From Flavobacterium defluvii (GTDB lineage Bacteria; Bacteroidota; Bacteroidia; Flavobacteriales; Flavobacteriaceae), in the NCBI RefSeq assembly GCF_900129555.1, contig NZ_FQWC01000001.1, forward strand, positions 434,001 to 498,000: DNA of 64,000 nucleotides, given 5' to 3'. The position numbers and the translations under genes are program-made. Shown one piece after another: positions 38,792 to 63,859 of this stretch. The notes under the pieces were generated by a model. That model was not told the DNA's origin, made no database searches, and saw only the letters and a list, made by a program, of their open reading frames with translations. Each line of letters opens with the position of its first letter. Position 1 is the stretch's first letter.

Positions 38792-38842
38792 ACTTCGAAT
38801 ATTTTTTTCATTTTAATTCCAAAAACTCACTATTGCTGGCTC

Positions 38843-38917
38843 ATTAGCCCCGATTGAAGTGGAAATCCTTTTGTTTTTTTCTTTAAAAAACAAAAGATTG
38901 CAACGAAAAGCGGGAAC
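38843..38917 (-). repeat. Dispersed intergenic repeat inside the metH leader
   Basis: Reverse complement of the family at 37074-37156: CCCGCTTTTCGTTGCAAT and GGATTTCCACTTCAATCGGG. An internal CAAAAG/CTTTTG-type stem joins the two parts. Sits between the SAM riboswitch and the metH start. Confidence 0.6.
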
Positions 38918-39025
38918 TATTGAATGCAAAAATGCGCCAATGATTCGCTCCTTCTACTGAATCTGTTTCAGTAAATATTATATGTTATCGAGAAAAGTTT
39001 TGAGAAATACTTGTAATGTATTTGT

Positions 39026-39138
39026 GTTATCTATCTTTAATACTGGAAAATGTCGTATAAAGTAGAATTTAGCACCTTCTTTATGATAAAGGGTTGCTAA
39101 GGTTTCATTGGGTCTATCCCTCCGCCTTTCGTGATAAC
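39026..39138 (-). ncRNA. SAM-I riboswitch (S-box) upstream of the homocysteine half of metH
   Basis: Read on the minus strand: P1 strand GTTATCACG, then GGAGGGATAGACCCAATGAA, ACCTTAGCAACC, GAAGGTGCTAAATTCTAC, and closing AGATAGATAAC. These match the conserved S-box elements (GGAGGGA, GAAACCxxxGCAACC, GGTGCTAAxTCC). SAM binding represses downstream methionine genes. The promoter lies just upstream. The gap to the ATG is about 340 nt and filled with repeats. Confidence 0.9.
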
Positions 39139-39161
39139 TGACAATAATTTTAAGAACAGTG

Positions 39162-55307: not shown

Positions 55308-56297
55308 TTATTTTGCTATTGTTTCTGCCTTAAAAATTCCGGCAAGTAAATGATCTAATTGTTTGTACTCGATTAAAAAAGCGTCATGTCCGTGAACCGA
55401 ATCAATTTCGCTGTAAAAAACATTGTTTTTAAATTTCTTTAATTCATTGTAAGTTTCCAGATTTTCTTTTGGTGTAAAAAACAAATCTGAATTGATTGCA
55501 ACGATATGAATCGCAGCGTTTGATTTGGATATTAACGTTTCGAAATCCTCACTATTTCTGGTAATATCTATGGTTTTAAGCAGCTGGTTCATCAATTTAT
55601 AAGATGCTAATTGATAGCGCTGCTGTAATTTTTTTCCGTGATGTGCCAGCCAGCTTTCGATATTAAAAATCAAAAGATCCTGATTGATAGTTCTCTGGAA
55701 TTTTTCTTTGAATGATTCCGGTGAGCGGTAACACAACATAGCATGGATTCTCGCATCTTCGATTGGTTTTGAAGAATTATTCAGAATCTGCTCCTGCAAA
55801 AAACAATTGGCAATCATCCAGTCGGTCGATTTCCAGTCTGTTGCAATAGGAATTAAATGTTCTGTAATGTTGGGTTCTAAAGCCAGAATTTCCCAGGCAA
55901 CGCCGCCGCCGACAGAACCGCCGATTATGGCAAATACCTTTTCGATACTTAAAGCTTTTAAGCCTTTGATGAAGATTTTGGCAATATCTCTGGTTGTAAA
56001 ATCCTGATAATTTTCGATTAGGAAAGAATCGTTTCCGTTTCCTGGAACATTAAACGCCAAAACGGTATATTGATTGGTATCGATGGTTTTTGCTTCGCCT
56101 ATTAAATCATTCCACCAGCCATTTTCGCCAGTCACATTTGCGTTTCCGGTTAAGGCGTGATTTACCAATACAATTGGAGCAGTATACAGCGGTTTACCAG
56201 CAAGTGTAAAACTTAACGGTAACGACGAATACAATGCACCACTTTCGGTGATGAAATCTTGAATTATAATGGGACTTGGTATATTTTCCAATTTCAA
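55308..56297 (-). CDS. metX: Homoserine O-acetyltransferase
   Basis: 329 residues, alpha/beta-hydrolase fold: VLVNHALTGNANVTGENGWW, the nucleophile elbow IIGGSVGGGVAWE (Ser), and the catalytic His in SVHGHDAFLIEY. Slightly shorter than many MetX proteins. Activates homoserine for sulfhydrylation by MetY. Leads a metX-thrA unit, preceded by a SAM-I riboswitch 80 nt upstream. Confidence 0.92.
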   Translation of the reverse strand: MKLENIPSPIIIQDFITESGALYSSLPLSFTLAGKPLYTAPIVLVNHALTGNANVTGENGWWNDLIGEAKTIDTNQYTVLAFNVPGNGNDSFLIENYQDFTTRDIAKIFIKGLKALSIEKVFAIIGGSVGGGVAWEILALEPNITEHLIPIATDWKSTDWMIANCFLQEQILNNSSKPIEDARIHAMLCYRSPESFKEKFQRTINQDLLIFNIESWLAHHGKKLQQRYQLASYKLMNQLLKTIDITRNSEDFETLISKSNAAIHIVAINSDLFFTPKENLETYNELKKFKNNVFYSEIDSVHGHDAFLIEYKQLDHLLAGIFKAETIAK

Positions 56298-56377
56298 ATC
56301 TTTTTTTACTTTTTTGATTTGTATGTGGAAATATTAGAAAGAAAGTCTAGAGTTTGAAACTAGAAAAAATTCTTGTT

Positions 56378-56482
56378 GTTATCTTTCCACGTTTGGGCGT
56401 GGTAGAATGCAGCACCTTCTTCGAATTAACGAAGGGTTGCTAAGGATTCATCGGGTCTAATCCCTCCTCCTTTCTTTATAAC
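56378..56482 (-). ncRNA. SAM-I riboswitch (S-box) upstream of metX
   Basis: Minus strand: GTTATAAAGAAAGGAGGAGG, ATTAGACCCGATGAATCC, TTAGCAACCC, a P3-like hairpin TTCGTTAATTCGAA, GAAGGTGCTGCATTCTACC, P4 hairpin CCACGCCCAAACGTGG, AAAGATAAC closing P1. All hallmark S-box segments are present. A -7-like TTAATTTG (56512-56519) lies 30 nt upstream. A CTAG-N9-CTAG-type hairpin follows before the ATG. Confidence 0.92.
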
Positions 56483-56673
56483 ATTTCAATACGTTTTTGA
56501 ACTTAACGGTGCAAATTAACTACTAATTTCTTAAACTAACAAATTTTATCGAAACTGATTCTTCAATTTCTTAAACATTATTCAATCAGAAACTTTTGTA
56601 CGCACAAAATTACCGAACGTTATGCCCAGTAAAGTCATGCAGGTTTTAACCTATTTTATGGCTGCTTTTCAAG

Positions 56674-56874
56674 TTAGATGAAAAGGGTTTCATTTTCTTT
56701 TGAATACATCAAAAACAATAATGAATTTGGTGCTTTTTTTACCGCTTTTTTATCTGTTTCAGTTACACCGAAACTTGGGTGGATTAATTCGTTTGCAGGC
56801 GGCGGGTTGTTTCTTTCAGCTTTTATGTTTCTGTACGTTGAAAGTTTTTTTCTTAAGTAAGTAATTGCGCTCAT
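56674..56874 (-). CDS. Small protein of unknown function behind a Cys-leader attenuator
   Basis: 66 residues, no signal peptide or membrane helix, rich in Lys, Asn and Pro. Its end, NSLLFLMYSKENETLFI, resembles the end of the 62-residue protein at 60104-60292 (KSLLFQMYDPELEREFSFA), which is also placed behind a leader peptide and terminator. The ATG lies 70 nt after the terminator at 56945-56982. Not a family I recognise. The shared tail and context are the reason I accept it as a gene. Confidence 0.5.
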   Translation of the reverse strand: MSAITYLRKKLSTYRNIKAERNNPPPANELIHPSFGVTETDKKAVKKAPNSLLFLMYSKENETLFI

Positions 56875-56944: not shown

Positions 56945-56982
56945 ATAAAAAAACCCTTTTGGATTTTTAATACCAAAAGGGT
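56945..56982 (-). terminator. Attenuator terminator L1
   Basis: ACCCTTTTGG (minus strand, from 56982) pairs perfectly with CCAAAAGGGT across a 10-nt loop, followed by TTTTTTATT. It stands between the leader peptide and the 66-residue gene. A further CCTTTTGG is just downstream (minus strand, 56936-56943). Confidence 0.82.
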
Positions 56983-57017: not shown

Positions 57018-57083
57018 TCAACAGACGCGTACACAAATACGTGCGACATTAAACATCTTGTTCATCTGTAGGGACTTATTCAT
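57018..57083 (-). CDS. Leader peptide L1 (21 residues, ends ARICVRVC)
   Basis: Minus-strand ATG at 57083 (MNKSLQMNK) running in frame to MFNVARICVRVC and TGA at 57018; an internal ATG at 57056 gives the 12-residue core alone. The stop is 35 nt before terminator L1. The sequence before the ATG, TTAAAATAACAG, is identical to that before leader L3 at 63.86 kb, which supports real translation starts at both. Two of the last five codons are Cys. Looks like an attenuation leader responding to Cys-tRNA. Confidence 0.55.
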   Translation of the reverse strand: MNKSLQMNKMFNVARICVRVC

Positions 57084-57416
57084 TTGCGATTTGACTGTTA
57101 TTTTAAAAAAATCTTGCATGTATTTTTCTTTAAAGCTTTTTTCAGATTTGATTAGGACCTCAAAAGCGAATATTTATTTTAACAAATAAACCTGTATTTT
57201 TAACAGATCTTACTTGTCTTACAAATGTGCGAATAATTTTCGAATATTCCAAGTTATAAAAGCCTTATTTTTCTTAAAAAACGTTAAAAAACAGCTTTTT
57301 ATCGTTAAAAAACGTCTTACAAAATTCCAATTTGAACGAAAGAAAGTTTTGTCTTACAAAAAATTAACTAACTTTAGTTTCAATCTATCAAAGAACTACT
57401 AATATTAAAGCCACTT
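57084..57416. other. Upstream region of leader L1, no gene seen
   Basis: AT-rich, with two direct copies of CGTTAAAAAAC (57282 and 57304 areas). No perfect -7 box on the minus strand; TAAAGAAAAATACATG around 57118-57134 (minus) resembles the spacer region of the L2 and L3 promoters. Confidence 0.4.
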
Positions 57417-58505
57417 TTACAGCCAGACAGCTTCTTTATTTTTTATTTTTTCGGCAACTTTTAAAATGTCTGTTATCAAGCCTCTTGAAATAGCTTGTTT
57501 GCATGGCGGTGCACTCTGAATTACAATAGGTGTATTGGCATACGACTGGGTATAGATTTCAAAAATAGAATCGGAACCTTTTAGCTGACCAATTGCCGAT
57601 GTCACGGGTTCTGATACTAATTTTACTTCGAGTGTATTTTTTTCGACATCAAATTCACCAATATATCGTAAAACATGATTGTCTTTTTGGGTTATTTTAG
57701 CAATTTTAAATGATCTGTCGACTGCATCTTTATTGAGAATTCCGTTTTTCTCTAAATGTTCTTCCTGAATAAGAGAATTAATTTTAATATCCGAAAAGTC
57801 AAATTCTTTTCCAATTTCACGGGTTAAAATCAATAATTTTCTTGCTGTATCGTTTCCTGATAAGTCTTCTTTAAATGTAGAACGCATTAATCCGAGAAGA
57901 CTGGCATCTTTCAAAATAGACGAAAAGGTATTTTCTTCGGCAGAAAAACGATTAAATACATAACTTAGATTATCTGAAAATACACCGCGGATTTTTGTGA
58001 TTTTTTCTCCGGAATAGTACAAATCTCTTAATGTCTGTAAAACCGGAACTCCTGTATCCACGGAGGTTTCATACAAAAACTCTTTATCGTACTTTTTAAG
58101 ATTTTCTCTTAATTGCTTATAAAGATCAATTGGGAGCGTGTTTGCTTTTTTATTTACGGCAACAATATTAAAACCGTTTTGGATTAACGTATTATAATGA
58201 CCTATAAGTTCATCACTCGCAGTTGCATCGACTGCAATTAGATTTTCAAATTCGTTTTCTTTTGCAAATTCGATAATATCTTCGACCCTAAACGGCACTG
58301 CCAATTGTCTAAAATTGGTTTCCCATGCATACCCTACGCCTTCTTTCTCAAAAAAGGCAACTGTAGAATTGGTAATTATAGGAAAATGAAAATCGACATT
58401 TTTACTTTGCAGAAAAAACTCCTGACTTTCTATAATCTGATTGATTAATGTACTTCCTATATTTCCTATTCCGAATAGAATAATATTTATTTTAAGCTTT
58501 GACAT
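57417..58505 (-). CDS. Degenerate homoserine dehydrogenase paralogue
   Basis: 362 residues aligned over their full length with the dehydrogenase half of ThrA in this window. The dinucleotide loop GIGNIGSTL and the Lys in AVNKKANT are kept, as are Asp and Lys in SGNDTARKLL. But the segment holding the substrate-binding Glu (YTEPDPREDL in ThrA) reads LMRSTFKEDL, the FSGTLSY loop reads FSDNLSY, and the C-terminal GAGAG reads SAPPC. I infer reduced or changed activity, perhaps a regulatory role. Located between metY and the L1 leader on the minus strand. Confidence 0.82.
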   Translation of the reverse strand: MSKLKINIILFGIGNIGSTLINQIIESQEFFLQSKNVDFHFPIITNSTVAFFEKEGVGYAWETNFRQLAVPFRVEDIIEFAKENEFENLIAVDATASDELIGHYNTLIQNGFNIVAVNKKANTLPIDLYKQLRENLKKYDKEFLYETSVDTGVPVLQTLRDLYYSGEKITKIRGVFSDNLSYVFNRFSAEENTFSSILKDASLLGLMRSTFKEDLSGNDTARKLLILTREIGKEFDFSDIKINSLIQEEHLEKNGILNKDAVDRSFKIAKITQKDNHVLRYIGEFDVEKNTLEVKLVSEPVTSAIGQLKGSDSIFEIYTQSYANTPIVIQSAPPCKQAISRGLITDILKVAEKIKNKEAVWL

Positions 58506-58717: not shown

Positions 58718-60022
58718 CTAATTTTTATTGATACTATACTGCGACTGAGTTACGCTTTCAAAAACCGATTGTAAATCGGCAATTAAATCTTCAACATCTT
58801 CAATTCCAACAGAAAGTCGGACTAAATCTTTTGTAACTCCGGTAGCTAATTGTTCTTCTTCTGACAATTGCTGATGCGTCGTGCTCGCCGGGTGGATAAT
58901 CAGCGATTTGGTATCACCAATATTAGCCAGAAGTGAGAACAATCTTGTTTCGTCTACCACTTTTTTAGCGGCATCAAAACCTCCTTTTAATCCAAAAGTG
59001 ATAATTCCGCTTTGGCCTTCAGGAAGATATTCTTTTGCTAAATCATAATATTTATTTGATTTCAAACCTGGATAATTTACCCAGACTACCTCATCTTGTT
59101 TCTCTAACCATTCAGCCAGAGCCAAAGCATTTTCGCTGTGTTTTTTAATTCGGATAGGAAGTGTTTCTAATCCCTGAATAATCTGGAATGCATTAAATGG
59201 GCTTAAAGCTGCTCCAAAATCACGCAATCCTTCGATTCTTGCTTTTGCGATAAAAGCTGCATTTCCTAAAGCTTCGTGATATACTAATCCGTGATATCCG
59301 GCAGAAGGTTCTGTAAATTCAGGGAATTTTCCGTTGGCCCAGTCAAAATTTCCGGCATCGATAATCGCGCCTCCTAATGACGTTCCGTTTCCGGCTATAT
59401 ATTTTGTTAAAGAGTGAATTACAATATCGGCACCGTATTTAATCGGGTTTAATAAATAAGGTGTCGCAACTGTATTGTCTACTATAAAAGGCACTTTGAA
59501 TGCTTTAGCTTGTGCCGAAATTCCTTTTAAATCTAATACGTCTAATTTTGGGTTTCCTAAAGATTCTACAAAGAATGCTCTGGTATTTTCTTTTGCTGCT
59601 TTTGTGAAGTTTTCAGGATTTGAAGGATCGACAAAAGTGGTTGTAATTCCTAATCGCGGTAAGGTTACACTTAATAAGTTATAAGTTCCGCCGTATAAAC
59701 TGTTTGATGCTACGATATGATCGCCCGCTCTCAATAAAGTCAATAAAGCAGTTGAAATTGCTGATGCACCCGATGCTGTCACTACAGCTCCAATTCCGCC
59801 TTCGAGTGCTGCAAGGCGCTGTTCTAAAACATCATTTGTCGGGTTATTTAATCTGGTATAAATAAATCCGGCTTCGGCAAGACCAAATAAATTGGCCGCA
59901 TGATCAGCATTATTAAATACATATGATGATGTCTGATAAATGGGTACTGCTCGTGTTCCTGAATTTTTAGTAACATCGTGCCCTGCGTGTAATGCGTTGG
60001 TTGCAAATTTTTGTGTGCTCAT
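58718..60022 (-). CDS. metY: O-acetylhomoserine sulfhydrylase / aminocarboxypropyltransferase
   Basis: 434 residues. Cys/Met-Met-PP family of the MetY length class: FATNALHAGHDVTKNSGTRA, VPIYQTSSYVFNNADHAA, YTRLNNPTNDVLEQRLAALEGG, PLP Lys in HSLTKYIAGNGTSLGG. Joins O-acetylhomoserine (from MetX) with sulfide (from the cys run) to homocysteine. 81 nt downstream of the 62-residue gene at 60104 on the same strand, so it lies behind the Met/Cys-leader attenuator L2. Confidence 0.93.
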   Translation of the reverse strand: MSTQKFATNALHAGHDVTKNSGTRAVPIYQTSSYVFNNADHAANLFGLAEAGFIYTRLNNPTNDVLEQRLAALEGGIGAVVTASGASAISTALLTLLRAGDHIVASNSLYGGTYNLLSVTLPRLGITTTFVDPSNPENFTKAAKENTRAFFVESLGNPKLDVLDLKGISAQAKAFKVPFIVDNTVATPYLLNPIKYGADIVIHSLTKYIAGNGTSLGGAIIDAGNFDWANGKFPEFTEPSAGYHGLVYHEALGNAAFIAKARIEGLRDFGAALSPFNAFQIIQGLETLPIRIKKHSENALALAEWLEKQDEVVWVNYPGLKSNKYYDLAKEYLPEGQSGIITFGLKGGFDAAKKVVDETRLFSLLANIGDTKSLIIHPASTTHQQLSEEEQLATGVTKDLVRLSVGIEDVEDLIADLQSVFESVTQSQYSINKN

Positions 60023-60103: not shown

Positions 60104-60292
60104 TTATGCAAAAGAAAATTCTCGTTCGAGTTCAGGATCATACATTTGAAACAATAATGATTTTTGAACTTTTCTATCCTGCTCTGCATTTATTCTTCTA
60201 ATTTCTCTTGATATTTCTTCAGATTTAATATTGTCTTTTTGAGAATCGTTTCTCAATAAATATTCGACTGCTATGGAATTTAATGTTTTCAT
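60104..60292 (-). CDS. Small protein of unknown function between attenuator L2 and metY
   Basis: 62 residues from the ATG at 60292 (MKTLNSIAVEYLLRNDSQKD); the longer frame to 60346 would run through the terminator and is rejected. Charged helix-forming sequence (SEEISREIRRINAEQDRKVQ) ending KSLLFQMYDPELEREFSFA. The SLLFxMYxxExExxF tail is shared with the small protein at 56674-56874. Its ATG is 26 nt past the terminator. Function unknown; likely co-transcribed with metY. Confidence 0.65.
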   Translation of the reverse strand: MKTLNSIAVEYLLRNDSQKDNIKSEEISREIRRINAEQDRKVQKSLLFQMYDPELEREFSFA

Positions 60293-60317
60293 GATTTTTA
60301 ATTTTAAAGTATTGAAA

Positions 60318-60353
60318 TGAAAAAAGCCCTTTCGGATGGCGACCAAAAGGGCT
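60318..60353 (-). terminator. Attenuator terminator L2
   Basis: Minus strand: AGCCCTTTTGG, 7-nt loop, CCGAAAGGGCT (one G-T pair), then TTTTTTC. Lies 31 nt after the L2 leader stop and 26 nt before the 62-residue gene. The 5' arm CTTTTGG is complementary to CCAAAAG at the end of the leader coding sequence. Confidence 0.85.
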
Positions 60354-60384
60354 TATAGCTTAACTATAACAAAGATTGTATCTT

Positions 60385-60465
60385 TCACTTTTGGCAACAG
60401 CAAGGTTGGATGCACATTTGCATCACGCTACAACACATCATATTTTTTCCTGCTATTGTTTTCAT
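60385..60465 (-). CDS. Leader peptide L2 (26 residues, Met/Cys-rich)
   Basis: Minus-strand ORF, ATG at 60465, TGA at 60385. Begins MKTIAGKNMM, then CCSVMQMCIQ, then PCCCQK: five Met (not counting none other than the start) and six Cys among 26 residues, with adjacent pairs Met-Met and Cys-Cys and a Cys triplet. It is followed by a terminator whose 5' arm can pair with CCAAAAG in the last three codons. This is the textbook layout of ribosome-mediated attenuation sensing charged tRNA-Met/tRNA-Cys. Confidence 0.7.
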   Translation of the reverse strand: MKTIAGKNMMCCSVMQMCIQPCCCQK

Positions 60466-60494
60466 TGTAATTAAAAATTAATTCATTTTTTAAA

Positions 60495-60544
60495 CTCGAC
60501 CAATTCGATAGAGTAAATGTAACAAGTATTTTTCTAACTGCCAA
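60495..60544 (-). promoter_or_regulatory. Promoter and operator-like site of leader L2
   Basis: Minus strand: TTG (60542-60544), 20-nt spacer, TACATTTA (60514-60521, one mismatch to TAnnTTTG). The operator-like site 60495-60517 (TTTACTCTATCGAATTGGT) overlaps the -7 box. The sequence TTTGGCAGTTAGAAAAATA is nearly the same as at the L3 promoter. Confidence 0.6.
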
Positions 60545-60617
60545 ATAAAATTTTGATATTTAACAATAAATTTTTGTAAGTCACGTAAATAAAGGCTTCT
60601 TCTATAAAAAATTGACC

Positions 60618-60824: not shown

Positions 60825-63671
60825 TTAGAATTTAAAGCTCAAACGTGCAAAACCAAATCTTCCGTTTAATCCAAACTGCGATACAGCTCTTGAATATGCA
60901 AACTGATTGGCATTTGACAAATCTGTACTTGGTGCCGGAGATAAAGTTGGAGTTGTGTTTGTGAAAGCCGGAGTTGATGGATTATTTCTGTCCGGATAAA
61001 CATCTCCTATATTATTAAAGCCAACTGTTGCTCTAAAATGTTCATTGATTTGATATCCGAAAGATAAATCGGTTACCAGTTTTGCACTGTATTCCGGATG
61101 TTCGTATACCGAAGCAAATCCATCTAAATTAACATCTGTTGCTCCCGGATCTGTAACTTTTCCGAAATAACTGTTTCTTAAATAAATGTCCAGTTTTTTA
61201 ATGCTGAAAGTTGTTGTTAAGTTTGCTTTTAATTTCGGAATTGCTTCTTCTAAATACACTCGGCTTGACTCAGGAAAAAATGAATATATATAAGGATCTC
61301 CTCCTGCATTAACAATAGACTGCGGAATATGCAAATCTCCTACTCTTTTAGTTTCATTATAACTCAAAGCAAAATCATTTCTGATTACAAAATCCTGAAT
61401 TACATCGTATTTTTGAGAAATTACAACATCAATTCCTTTTGTTTCAGAGTCGATTCCGTTTGTCCAGAACGAAGCTCTTTCTACACCTTTTGTATCAAAA
61501 GCCTGTTGAAACAAAGTCAAAGCTTCTGCCTGCTGCGGAGAAGTTGCTGCAGCAATCTGAGCATCTGTTGGTCTTGAATATTGACCAGTTAAAACAATTC
61601 TGTCGTTGATTCTGGTGAAATAAGCATCGGTTGCGATTGTAATATTGGCTTCTGGGATTTTAAATGTAAATCCTGTACTGATGCTTTTTGATTTCTCTGG
61701 TTTTAAATTTTCTACGCCAATACTTTTTGCTGCCTGAGAATCATTTGTAAAATAGCCAACCTGATATGGCGAACCATTAATAAACTGTGTTGAACTGCTT
61801 TCGAAATATTTTTGTTGTAAAGACGGCGCTCTAAAGCCTGTTTGTCCAGAAATTCTCCAGTTGATATTTTCGTTTAGTTTTAAAAGAGAAGCTAATTTAA
61901 AATTAATTGTGCTTCTAAAATCTGAATAATTTTCATAACGTGCCGCACCATTTACAAGCCAGTTTTCTGTAGCATTTAACTCTAAATCAAGATAAGCTGC
62001 ACCGCTTCGTCTGTCTCTTTCTTTAGCATCTGAAGGCTGAAATCCTGAAAATCCCTGCGCTCCTGCTCCGCGTTTGTTTCCAAAGAAATCAGTCACAATT
62101 AAAGGTGAATTGCTTGGCAGAATTCCAGAAACCAAAGTTCCGTTTACATCATATAATCCGTATGAAGCTTCTTCTCCTTGTTTGATTTGATAATTTTCAT
62201 ATCTGAATTCACCTCCAAAAGCAACGTTTAAACCAGAAAGAAAATCAAATTTTCTGCTGAAATCTAAATTGGTCGTACTTTGCAAAAAAGAAACTTTTCC
62301 GGCATCAAAACTTGTTGGAGAATTTACGCCCAAAGTTGCATTGATAGTATTGTTTACATCATATTTAAAAGAGTTTGTTCCAAGGTTCGAACTCAAATCA
62401 GTATCAAAACCAAATAATTGTGTATTTACTCCAAGTGCTGCAGAAGCATCTAAAATTCCTGATTCAATTTCCGGTAAAAATCCGTTTTCATACACTTGCG
62501 TGAAAGTTCCTGAACCATTTGGTAATCTGTTAAAAGCATACGATTTTCCATCTCTATATGATACTCCACCAAATGAATACAATGAAGTTGTTTCGGTTAA
62601 AGGATATTTTGCATTATAATAGGCTTGTCCCGAAGCAAGTTCTGACTGACCAACACTCATATTATAGTCGGCTCTTTCCTGATTTCTATAAGCTAATTCA
62701 TTATTAGTTACATCAAAATTTAGCGCTGTCTGCAATTGTGCAATTGTTGTTGCAGATGAAATTGCATTTTGCTGTGCCGGTGTAAAATAACTTACCTGCG
62801 GCGCATATTGCTGAATCGTACTTATAATTTGTACCGAATTTGGAGTCGTATTGATATTGCTAAAAAGAGAGTTGATCTGAACTCCGTTTTGCGCGGCTCT
62901 GTTTTCTACAGCATTGTAAGCATTAAAAATGGCATTGCTTCTAATTCCTGCGCGGCTTGTCACTTGTCTTGTTACAGCAGTTCCGGTAACATTTAAAAAA
63001 CTTCCCGGTTTTCCTAATGAAGTTCCGTAGTTTAAATCAACCTGAACAGTTTGTCCATCGGCTCCGCCTTTAAAGTTGTTAGATCCCGAAGATAAATTAG
63101 TTCCGTACTGAATTCCTCCTGAAAGATAATTGGCATTCTTTTTTAGAACGATATTGATTACTCCGGCAATCGCATCAGAACCGTATTGTGCTGCTGCTCC
63201 GTCTCTTAAAACTTCGATTCTTTCAATGGCGAAAGATGGAATCGCATTTAAATCTGTTCCTACAGATCCTCTTCCCGGTGATCCGTTTATGTTTACTAAG
63301 GCACTTGTATGTCTTCGTTTTCCATTTACTAAAATTAAAACCTGATCCGGGCCTAAACCTCTTAATTGTGCCGGATCAACGTGGTCTGTTGCATCGGCAG
63401 TTGATGTTGCGTTACTGGTAAAAGATGGTGCAACATAATTTAAAATCTGCGTTACGCTGGTTTGCGGCGCTCCTTTTGTTATTTCAGAAATATTAAAAAC
63501 ATCAACAGGAACCGGAACATCAGTTTTTACTCTGTTTTTATTTCTGGTTCCAATTACGGTAACTTCTAATAATTCATTATTCTTTAAAGTATCCTGCTCC
63601 GTTTTATTATCCTGAGCATAAAGGCCTGAAAATGTCACAAGACCTAAAACGATTAGTACATTCTTCTTCAT
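60825..63671 (-). CDS. TonB-dependent outer-membrane receptor
   Basis: 948 residues. Signal peptide (MKKNVLIVLGLVTFSGLYAQ), short N-terminal lead, plug domain (about 50-165: VDVFNISEITKGAP, QLRGLGPDQVLILVNGKRRH, IERIEVLRDGAAAQYGSDAI, AGVINIVLKK), then a 22-strand barrel ending in GRFGFARLSFKF. No CarboxypepD_reg domain and no SusD partner, so not a polysaccharide SusC. Behind a Met/Cys-rich leader and terminator (L3) and next to metY; a sulfur-containing or methionine-related ligand is a reasonable inference, though a siderophore or vitamin is possible. Confidence 0.88.
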   Translation of the reverse strand: MKKNVLIVLGLVTFSGLYAQDNKTEQDTLKNNELLEVTVIGTRNKNRVKTDVPVPVDVFNISEITKGAPQTSVTQILNYVAPSFTSNATSTADATDHVDPAQLRGLGPDQVLILVNGKRRHTSALVNINGSPGRGSVGTDLNAIPSFAIERIEVLRDGAAAQYGSDAIAGVINIVLKKNANYLSGGIQYGTNLSSGSNNFKGGADGQTVQVDLNYGTSLGKPGSFLNVTGTAVTRQVTSRAGIRSNAIFNAYNAVENRAAQNGVQINSLFSNINTTPNSVQIISTIQQYAPQVSYFTPAQQNAISSATTIAQLQTALNFDVTNNELAYRNQERADYNMSVGQSELASGQAYYNAKYPLTETTSLYSFGGVSYRDGKSYAFNRLPNGSGTFTQVYENGFLPEIESGILDASAALGVNTQLFGFDTDLSSNLGTNSFKYDVNNTINATLGVNSPTSFDAGKVSFLQSTTNLDFSRKFDFLSGLNVAFGGEFRYENYQIKQGEEASYGLYDVNGTLVSGILPSNSPLIVTDFFGNKRGAGAQGFSGFQPSDAKERDRRSGAAYLDLELNATENWLVNGAARYENYSDFRSTINFKLASLLKLNENINWRISGQTGFRAPSLQQKYFESSSTQFINGSPYQVGYFTNDSQAAKSIGVENLKPEKSKSISTGFTFKIPEANITIATDAYFTRINDRIVLTGQYSRPTDAQIAAATSPQQAEALTLFQQAFDTKGVERASFWTNGIDSETKGIDVVISQKYDVIQDFVIRNDFALSYNETKRVGDLHIPQSIVNAGGDPYIYSFFPESSRVYLEEAIPKLKANLTTTFSIKKLDIYLRNSYFGKVTDPGATDVNLDGFASVYEHPEYSAKLVTDLSFGYQINEHFRATVGFNNIGDVYPDRNNPSTPAFTNTTPTLSPAPSTDLSNANQFAYSRAVSQFGLNGRFGFARLSFKF

Positions 63672-63737: not shown

Positions 63738-63767
63738 CAAAAAAAACCTCTGCGGCCTGCAGAGGTT
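63738..63767 (-). terminator. Attenuator terminator L3
   Basis: Minus strand: AACCTCTGC, 5-nt loop, GCAGAGGTT, then TTTTTTG. Between leader L3 (stop at 63791) and the receptor ATG (63671). Its 5' arm CTCTGC is complementary to GCAGAG in leader codons 18-19. Confidence 0.86.
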
Positions 63768-63790: not shown

Positions 63791-63859
63791 CTACAATAGA
63801 GTCTCTGCGGAAAGTTCCGGCATCTTACAAGACATCATATTGCAAACTGTAAATTTCAT
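63791..63859 (-). CDS. Leader peptide L3 (22 residues, Met/Cys-rich)
   Basis: Minus-strand ORF, ATG at 63859, TAG at 63791: MKFTVCNMMSCKM, then PELSAETLL. Residues 6-13 hold two Cys and three Met; the NMM-x-C pattern repeats that of leader L2 (NMMCC). Preceded by TTAAAATAACAG as in L1. Codons 18-19 (GCA GAG) can pair with CTCTGC of the following terminator, giving an antiterminator if the ribosome stalls on the Met/Cys codons. Confidence 0.65.
   Translation of the reverse strand: MKFTVCNMMSCKMPELSAETLL

Follow-up and report, generated by a model that had tools for sequence, protein, structure and literature searches.

We found that metY of Flavobacterium defluvii is very likely preceded by a ribosome-mediated transcription attenuator of the trp/his type, with both Met and Cys codons as control codons. 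The argument is comparative and draws on conservation of a leader ORF, the placement of its Met and Cys codons, covarying helices and an alternation with the SAM riboswitch. The window analysed is a stretch of 64,000 nucleotides (NCBI RefSeq GCF_900129555.1, contig NZ_FQWC01000001.1, positions 434,001 to 498,000) within a genome of 4.87 Mb. It holds three attenuators, A, B and C, all on the minus strand, of which B is the one before metY (Table 1). An initial annotation of this DNA had described a 26-residue Met/Cys-rich ORF, an intrinsic terminator after it and a match between the last codons and the terminator 5′ arm, directly upstream of a 62-residue gene and metY, and all of these elements were present as described. 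The candidate promoter of attenuator B is similar to TAnnTTTG, the -7 consensus of Flavobacterium given in PMC9723704. Rfam amino-acid leader families gave no match at the gathering threshold in the window, where only SAM (twice) and Flavo-1 were matched; the Flavo-1 RNA (38842-38921, plus strand) lies on the strand opposite to an S-methyltransferase gene and its SAM-I riboswitch (39024-39140, minus strand).

Table 1. Positions of attenuators A, B and C and of neighbouring genes in the window.
Feature	Position	Strand	Details
Leader ORF A, type II	63791..63859	-	MKFTVCNMMSCKMPELSAETLL
Terminator A	63739..63767	-	AACCTCTGC/GCAGAGGTT and U-run; 63745..63767 in the narrower delimitation; 5′ arm partner is GCAGAG of leader A
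TonB-dependent receptor gene	60825..63671	-	downstream of attenuator A
Candidate promoter, attenuator B	60514..60545	-	TTTG, 20 nt, TACATTTA; putative, read from sequence
Leader ORF B, 26 aa	60385..60465	-	MKTIAGKNMMCCSVMQMCIQPCCCQK; peptide search, metY-upstream shuffles, window ORF ranking
Segment 1, codons 3-5	60451..60458	-	CAATAGCA; partner is segment 2a; covariation and leader fold
Probable control codons 9-18	60412..60441	-	MMCCSVMQMC; Met/Cys profile and stall model
Segment 2a, codons 22-24	60395..60402	-	TGCTGTTG; partner is segment 1; covariation
Segment 2b, antiterminator 5′ strand	60388..60394	-	CCAAAAG; covariation, helix tests, partial-transcript fold
Hairpin P1, within antiterminator junction	60371..60385	-	A-U to G-C in 3/28 leaders
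Hairpin P2, within antiterminator junction	60353..60369	-	A-U to U-A in 2/28 leaders
Segment 3	60343..60349	-	CTTTTGG; common to antiterminator and terminator
Intrinsic terminator B, segments 3:4	60320..60354	-	12 bp, with U-run; 60324..60354 in the narrower delimitation
62-aa small protein gene	60104..60292	-	C-terminal SLLF.MY motif
metY, O-acetylhomoserine sulfhydrylase	58718..60022	-	TIGR01326 above cut-off
Homoserine dehydrogenase-like gene	57417..58505	-	downstream of metY
Leader ORF C	57018..57119	-	MQDFFKITVKSQMNKSLQMNKMFNVARICVRVC, ending ...MNKMFNVARICVRVC
Terminator C	56947..56982	-	with U-run; 56953..56982 in the narrower delimitation; 5′ arm partner is ATACTAAAAG at leader C stop codon
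66-aa small gene	56674..56874	-	between attenuator C and SAM-I riboswitch
SAM-I riboswitch	56376..56484	-	between attenuator C and metX
metX-like homoserine acyltransferase	55308..56297	-	below NCBIfam equivalog cut-offs

Among the 582 ATG ORFs of 10-45 amino acids in the window, leader ORF B ranked first for Met plus Cys, with 10 of these residues besides the start codon. A search with the peptide gave matches at E≤1 in 36 of 150 genomes of the genus, and similar leaders were found at 17 named loci, which belong to Flavobacterium (F. aquidurense, F. saccharophilum, F. pectinovorum, F. piscis and others) and one Flavobacteriaceae. The C-terminal pattern was present in 25 of 30 fetched loci (L002-L031), and L024 is a real leader although it is among the five that failed the pattern. 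The metY gene itself was a fairer anchor for conservation than the peptide search and was found at E≤1e-120 in 84 of the 150 genomes, at 87 places. When the 500 nt upstream of metY (less at contig ends) were scanned against 100 dinucleotide shuffles each, the best short ORF went beyond all shuffles in Met/Cys content at 72 of the 87 places and was equalled by at most one shuffle at 76. The mean Met plus Cys of these ORFs was 8.7, compared to 1.75 in shuffled sequence and 1.46 on the reverse strand; the shuffle-based tests ignore kinship among the sequences. No leader was found by these tests at G113, G142, G147 and the distant second metY-like gene of G006. The initial annotation had named conservation of the hairpin only as evidence against its reading, and what was found is conservation of the leader ORF as well. 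The leaders varied widely in sequence across the genus (MKTIAGKNMMCCSVMQMCIQPCCCQK, MNVIAKNMMSCMMMHMMMCCIGICYYQKRKT, MNNLKQKQMNTCNVKSMICAKAMMCVCVC and the Met-dominated MIFNTNTMMMAMMMMNMMMFTTPYCLKSTS), and the existence of Met-dominated forms such as MMMAMMMMNMMM was counted in favour of attenuation. In addition, Cys was encoded by a mixture of TGT and TGC, with 132 and 55 codons respectively in 76 leaders of the genus, counted without their last six residues, and 52 and 35 in 14 leaders from the wider class.

A terminator was located 5-130 nt past a leader in 76 of the 87 genus metY regions. Among the 11 regions where such a pair was not found, G070, G047, G005, G025 and G074 bear a leader or terminator of type II, described below, and G144 is truncated by a contig end. 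The 149-nt leader of the window folded at z = -5.0 relative to dinucleotide shuffles. Pairing of segment 2b with the terminator 5′ arm was examined across the genus using anchors set independently of pairing (codons C-Q-K or variants in the leader, TTGG or TCGG in the terminator arm). We found that 365 of 468 cells were paired, whereas shuffling of the partners gave a mean of 348.3 (sd 3.5), and none of 2000 shuffles equalled the observed value. Compensatory changes, for which the initial annotation had proposed to test the stems, are present. The 62 rows of this set contain 39 unique pairs; 26 rows of other leader types were dropped at the anchor, and one retained row, L035, is misanchored. 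One antiterminator position occurred as G-U, A-U, G-C and U-A, and another as U-A and G-C. Furthermore, an ungapped helix test on 60 representative leaders, a set that extends to other genera and orders, gave p<0.05 in 33 and p<0.01 in 14, with kinship not removed. The representatives were thinned from 92 items, and L155 was dropped because the finder missed its terminator, which can be recognised by eye; the helices AGATATTGCCAAA/TTTGGTAATATCT and GCTGAAGGGT/GCCCTTCAGC are examples. For the window leader alone, the helix between leader end and terminator arm was unremarkable against shuffles (p = 0.084), and its best RNAduplex fell in another register, with 44 of 200 shuffles as good. RNAduplex energies against shuffled leaders were also weak across the set (24 of 76 at ≤10/200), which was counted against the attenuator reading, and the anchored and ungapped tests were devised after this result was known. 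The support for the pairing is comparative.

For a partial transcript ending before the terminator 3′ arm, the minimum-energy fold was a CCAAAAG/CTTTTGG stem enclosing hairpins P1 and P2 (-14.3 kcal/mol, z = -2.3), which gives the predicted antiterminator the shape of a three-way junction rather than a plain hairpin. Both hairpins carried double changes among the window-type leaders (Table 1). The closing stem was near-invariant in the same leaders and was counted against the attenuator reading. A GATGCA/TGCATC hairpin within the leader had one-sided or pair-breaking changes only and is not claimed.

The position of Met and Cys within the leaders was sharply bounded. In 56 unique peptides from the anchored covariation rows (L035 excluded), codons were numbered relative to the arm anchor; the Met/Cys share was 0.38-0.95 over codons -16 to -6 and 0.02-0.05 over codons -5 to -3, with Cys returning at -2 to 0, where the RNA requires Cys codons. 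This profile bears on a reading in which the ORF is incidental and the RNA works like a riboswitch or as a structure bound by a protein, as the strong and covarying RNA structure might suggest. The Met/Cys content, however, survives divergence in sequence, length and hairpins, Cys is encoded by both TGT and TGC, and Met and Cys break off five codons ahead of the arm, all of which makes an incidental ORF very unlikely.

We then return to attenuation and to where a ribosome would have to stall. In our stall model the ribosome was assumed to cover 12 nt past the first A-site base, and only RNA downstream of it was folded. With the A site at codons 9-12 and 14-20, the antiterminator probability before segment 4 was at least 0.96; at codons 21-27 it was at most 0.03, placing the switch between codons 20 and 21, with codons 9-18 on the permissive side and the CCC on the blocking side. 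Together with the Met/Cys profile, the model indicates that codons 9-18 are likely the control codons. The terminal PCCC probably has no sensing role, because its bases are held in covarying RNA helices and because a ribosome stalled there would, in the model, cover the antiterminator arm. The full-length equilibrium fold favoured the terminator (0.91), and antitermination must therefore be kinetic. In a ribosome-free model the 1:2 helix (0.98; segments 1 and 2a) and the 2:3 helix (0.99) coexist before segment 4, and the untranslated state is therefore not clearly off. Leaders of the CVCVC types and that of attenuator C, which have Cys codons directly at the stop, matched the stall geometry only in part.

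In the mechanism we propose, transcription of the leader by RNA polymerase would be accompanied by translation of the 26-codon ORF. A scarcity of charged Met-tRNA or Cys-tRNA would stall the ribosome within codons 9-18, which would free the leader 3′ end GCCAAAAG to pair with CTTTTGGT and close the three-way junction around P1 and P2. The junction would sequester the terminator 5′ arm, and transcription would proceed into the small gene and metY. With an ample supply the ribosome would reach the stop codon and mask CCAAAAG, the terminator would form and transcription would end. What we infer here is translation of the leader, stalling and read-through, and that Met or Cys governs them. The trp/his-type attenuation of the initial annotation is supported by comparison, through the conserved leader and the compensatory changes, with two corrections: the terminal PCCC probably does not belong to the sensor, and a three-way junction is predicted in place of a plain-hairpin antiterminator. 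Any stall would give the same RNA logic, including an arrest caused by the growing leader peptide when it senses a small molecule such as SAM, Met or Cys, and not by tRNA shortage, as TnaC arrests the ribosome in response to tryptophan. By eye, however, no peptide motif was common to the leader families except the Met/Cys content, and we consider such an arrest peptide highly improbable.

In addition to the helices required for attenuation, leaders of the window type have a long-range 1:2 helix between their first and last codons (CAATAGCA with TGCTGTTG). In 28 window-type leaders, 99.1% of 224 cells were paired, a value that applies to a narrower set: the window and 27 of 33 sequences, with four near-duplicates excluded as well as G014 and G149, which lack the helix. 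It was changed on both sides in three of eight pairs (8 cells). None of 500 shuffles equalled its covariation score, its paired cells or its both-side-changed cells, while the count of both-side-changed pairs was equalled by 21 of 500; shifting the partner along the sequence lowered the pairing to 16-63%. Codon 5 was GCA opposite mostly TGC, GCG opposite CGC or CGT (Cys to Arg) and GCT opposite AGC (Cys to Ser), such that C22 was replaced by Arg or Ser with a matching change in codon 5, and C23 by Tyr, with the RNA pairing kept. In 58 representative leaders the helix gave p<0.05 in 26 and p<0.01 in 18, mainly of the window type and the MNVIAKN type. It was missing from most CVCVC, Met-dominated and type II leaders, a restriction entered on the negative side. 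The helix is a conserved extra of the window leader type, and may act as a pause hairpin or anti-antiterminator. That the peptide itself is active, binding metal (copper) or thiols as a small Met/Cys-rich product made with metY, was considered and ranked low, like the arrest peptide, and is barely credible: its MMCC..MxMC..CCC composition resembles soft-metal ligands, whereas C22 and C23 are replaced while RNA pairing persists, Met-dominated and Cys-run leader forms occur, and a terminator comes next in 76 of the 87 genus regions.

Attenuation would extend to other genes and leader types in the window. Attenuator A, upstream of the TonB-dependent receptor gene, has a leader of type II. Using a fixed pattern list to detect type II terminators, we found one together with a leader of at least four Met/Cys in 44 of the 87 Flavobacterium metY regions; in 35 regions it was in series with a different leader nearer metY, and in nine it was the sole leader found. 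The type II pairing also covaried, with a mean longest helix of 5.89 compared to 5.41 in 2000 partner shuffles (sd 0.10, maximum 5.76; 38 unique pairs). In L089 and L092, read in the orientation of metY, an extra Cys-rich short ORF, MKIAIYNPRRCCRMCS, is located between the type II terminator and metY. Of 13 relatives examined, 11 have leader C, while L141 has a leader of another type and L140 gave no match. The 62-aa and 66-aa proteins encoded behind the attenuators have a common C-terminal SLLF.MY motif, and of 29 listed ORFs that lie between metY and its attenuator, the window included, 26 keep SLL. The 62-aa protein had no Pfam or NCBIfam match and the 66-aa protein no NCBIfam match. A covariance model, R1, which was used for candidate finding only, gave 69 hits at E≤0.1 in 397 family genomes, many of them plain terminators. 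Its matches C8 and C3 elsewhere in the genome of the window had no Met/Cys leader in the stretches inspected and were rejected.

We compared the distribution of the leader with that of the SAM riboswitch. The Flavobacteriaceae set comprised 40 genomes of 39 genera, hand-picked down a ranked list of the 162 of 239 genomes with metY, and SAM-I lay upstream of metY on the same strand in 34 of the 40 regions. A Met/Cys leader (equalled by at most one of 100 shuffles) was present in none of the 34 regions with the riboswitch and in four of the six without it (Fisher p = 1.6e-4); G245 and G196 were known beforehand to bear leaders, and with these excluded the values were 0/34 and 2/4 (p = 0.0085). 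No SAM-I (RF00162) was found before metY in the window or in the 20 Flavobacterium regions scanned, out of 67 fetched. These data suggest that at metY of Flavobacteriaceae the attenuator replaces the SAM riboswitch usual in most relatives, in a comparison made without phylogenetic correction. SAM-II was rejected as a regulator of metY, its matches in 7 of 20 genus regions all being on the strand opposite metY. These matches, above the gathering score, were in L071, L074, L075, L089, L099, L113 and L116, and a divergent gene may be SAM-II controlled.

The comparison was extended to the class, in which metY was found at E≤1e-100 in 56 of 247 genomes. Forty of the metY upstream places were used, two being Flavobacteriaceae; a Met/Cys ORF (at most one of 100 shuffles) was present in 24, SAM-I in 22 and both in 15, and Cys-rich leaders often accompany the SAM riboswitch in other Bacteroidia. 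The median Met count was 2 in leaders beside the riboswitch compared to 5 in those without it (Mann-Whitney p = 0.002, kinship not corrected and the doubtful leader L181 included). Within the last 20 residues the difference gave p = 0.023 with L181 and 0.014 without it, and Cys counts were alike in leaders with and without the riboswitch (p = 0.27). In 11 of the 15 regions with both elements, the leader ATG, as called, lay 0-11 nt past the SAM-I aptamer. In L144, L145, L151, L156, L161, L163, L168, L171 and L172 a Cys-rich leader ORF begins 3-11 nt after the aptamer, before metY. This arrangement suggests that aptamer and adjoining Cys-rich leader form a two-input device. By eye, several class leaders had no obvious intrinsic terminator, and their mode of action may therefore differ. 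Collectively, we think it reasonably likely that sulfur-amino-acid attenuators are Bacteroidia-wide and that their leader codons and SAM riboswitches substitute for one another, the leader being Cys-dominated (as a SAM plus Cys device) or absent beside a SAM riboswitch, with Met codons added where there is no riboswitch, and that Flavobacterium often has two in series, the same genome having a third before metX.

Guerin 2021 (PMC9723704) reported strong indications that amino-acid operons of F. psychrophilum are preceded by leader-peptide attenuators, in the same genus and by the same general mechanism; the conserved 5′ elements named in the available text are those of pheA, hisG and others, and its main text never uses the word methionine. 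For B. thetaiotaomicron, short ORFs that recall such leaders have been mentioned (PMC7366714). A regulon survey (PMC3766115) included the Rfam His, Leu, Thr and Trp leaders, Ile/Val and Phe attenuators also being known, and neither Bacteroid nor Flavobact occurs in the main text of PMC2965389. For Bacteroidota, then, leader-peptide attenuation as such is no novelty. The mechanism class is known; a Met/Cys leader attenuator before metY, or any methionine-sensing leader-peptide attenuator, was not found in the literature searched, outside which most subscription journals lie.

Cys-rich regulatory short ORFs in mycobacteria, reportedly the subject of work by Canestrari in 2020, likewise have runs of Cys codons ahead of sulfur genes. 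For Actinobacteria, Seliverstov 2005 (PMC1262725) predicted Cys-rich leaders with no conserved terminator and, in the available text, no RNA structures ahead of methionine operons. The metY leaders differ from these mycobacterial and actinobacterial leaders in their intrinsic terminators, covarying antiterminators and additional Met codons. The met operon of Xanthomonas campestris is likewise under 5′UTR feedback and differs in that this is mainly translational (PMC6230763); according to that source Xanthomonas has no metY, and its main text is without the words leader and peptide. A SAM-I riboswitch before metY serves the same gene and pathway as the attenuator and senses SAM directly. A Met-codon sensor would read charged elongator Met-tRNA, a signal distinct from SAM, because Met starts every protein. 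The alternation at one gene provides natural variants with which to ask what ribosome-based amino acid sensing gains over aptamer-based sensing of SAM. Because the leaders are short, occur in large numbers and can be aligned, work in culturable Flavobacterium could directly test the control codons, the switch point and compensatory mutants.

The leaders of trp, his, thr and leu operons combine a short ORF rich in codons of the pathway, a choice between antiterminator and terminator, and a terminator upstream of the structural genes. The metY attenuator is like those of Proteobacteria (Rfam Trp, His, Thr and Leu leaders; PMC1183508) in these features, and is unlike them in its Met and Cys control codons, in its Bacteroidota host and in an antiterminator that is predicted to be a three-way junction with its 5′ strand in the last codons of the ORF.
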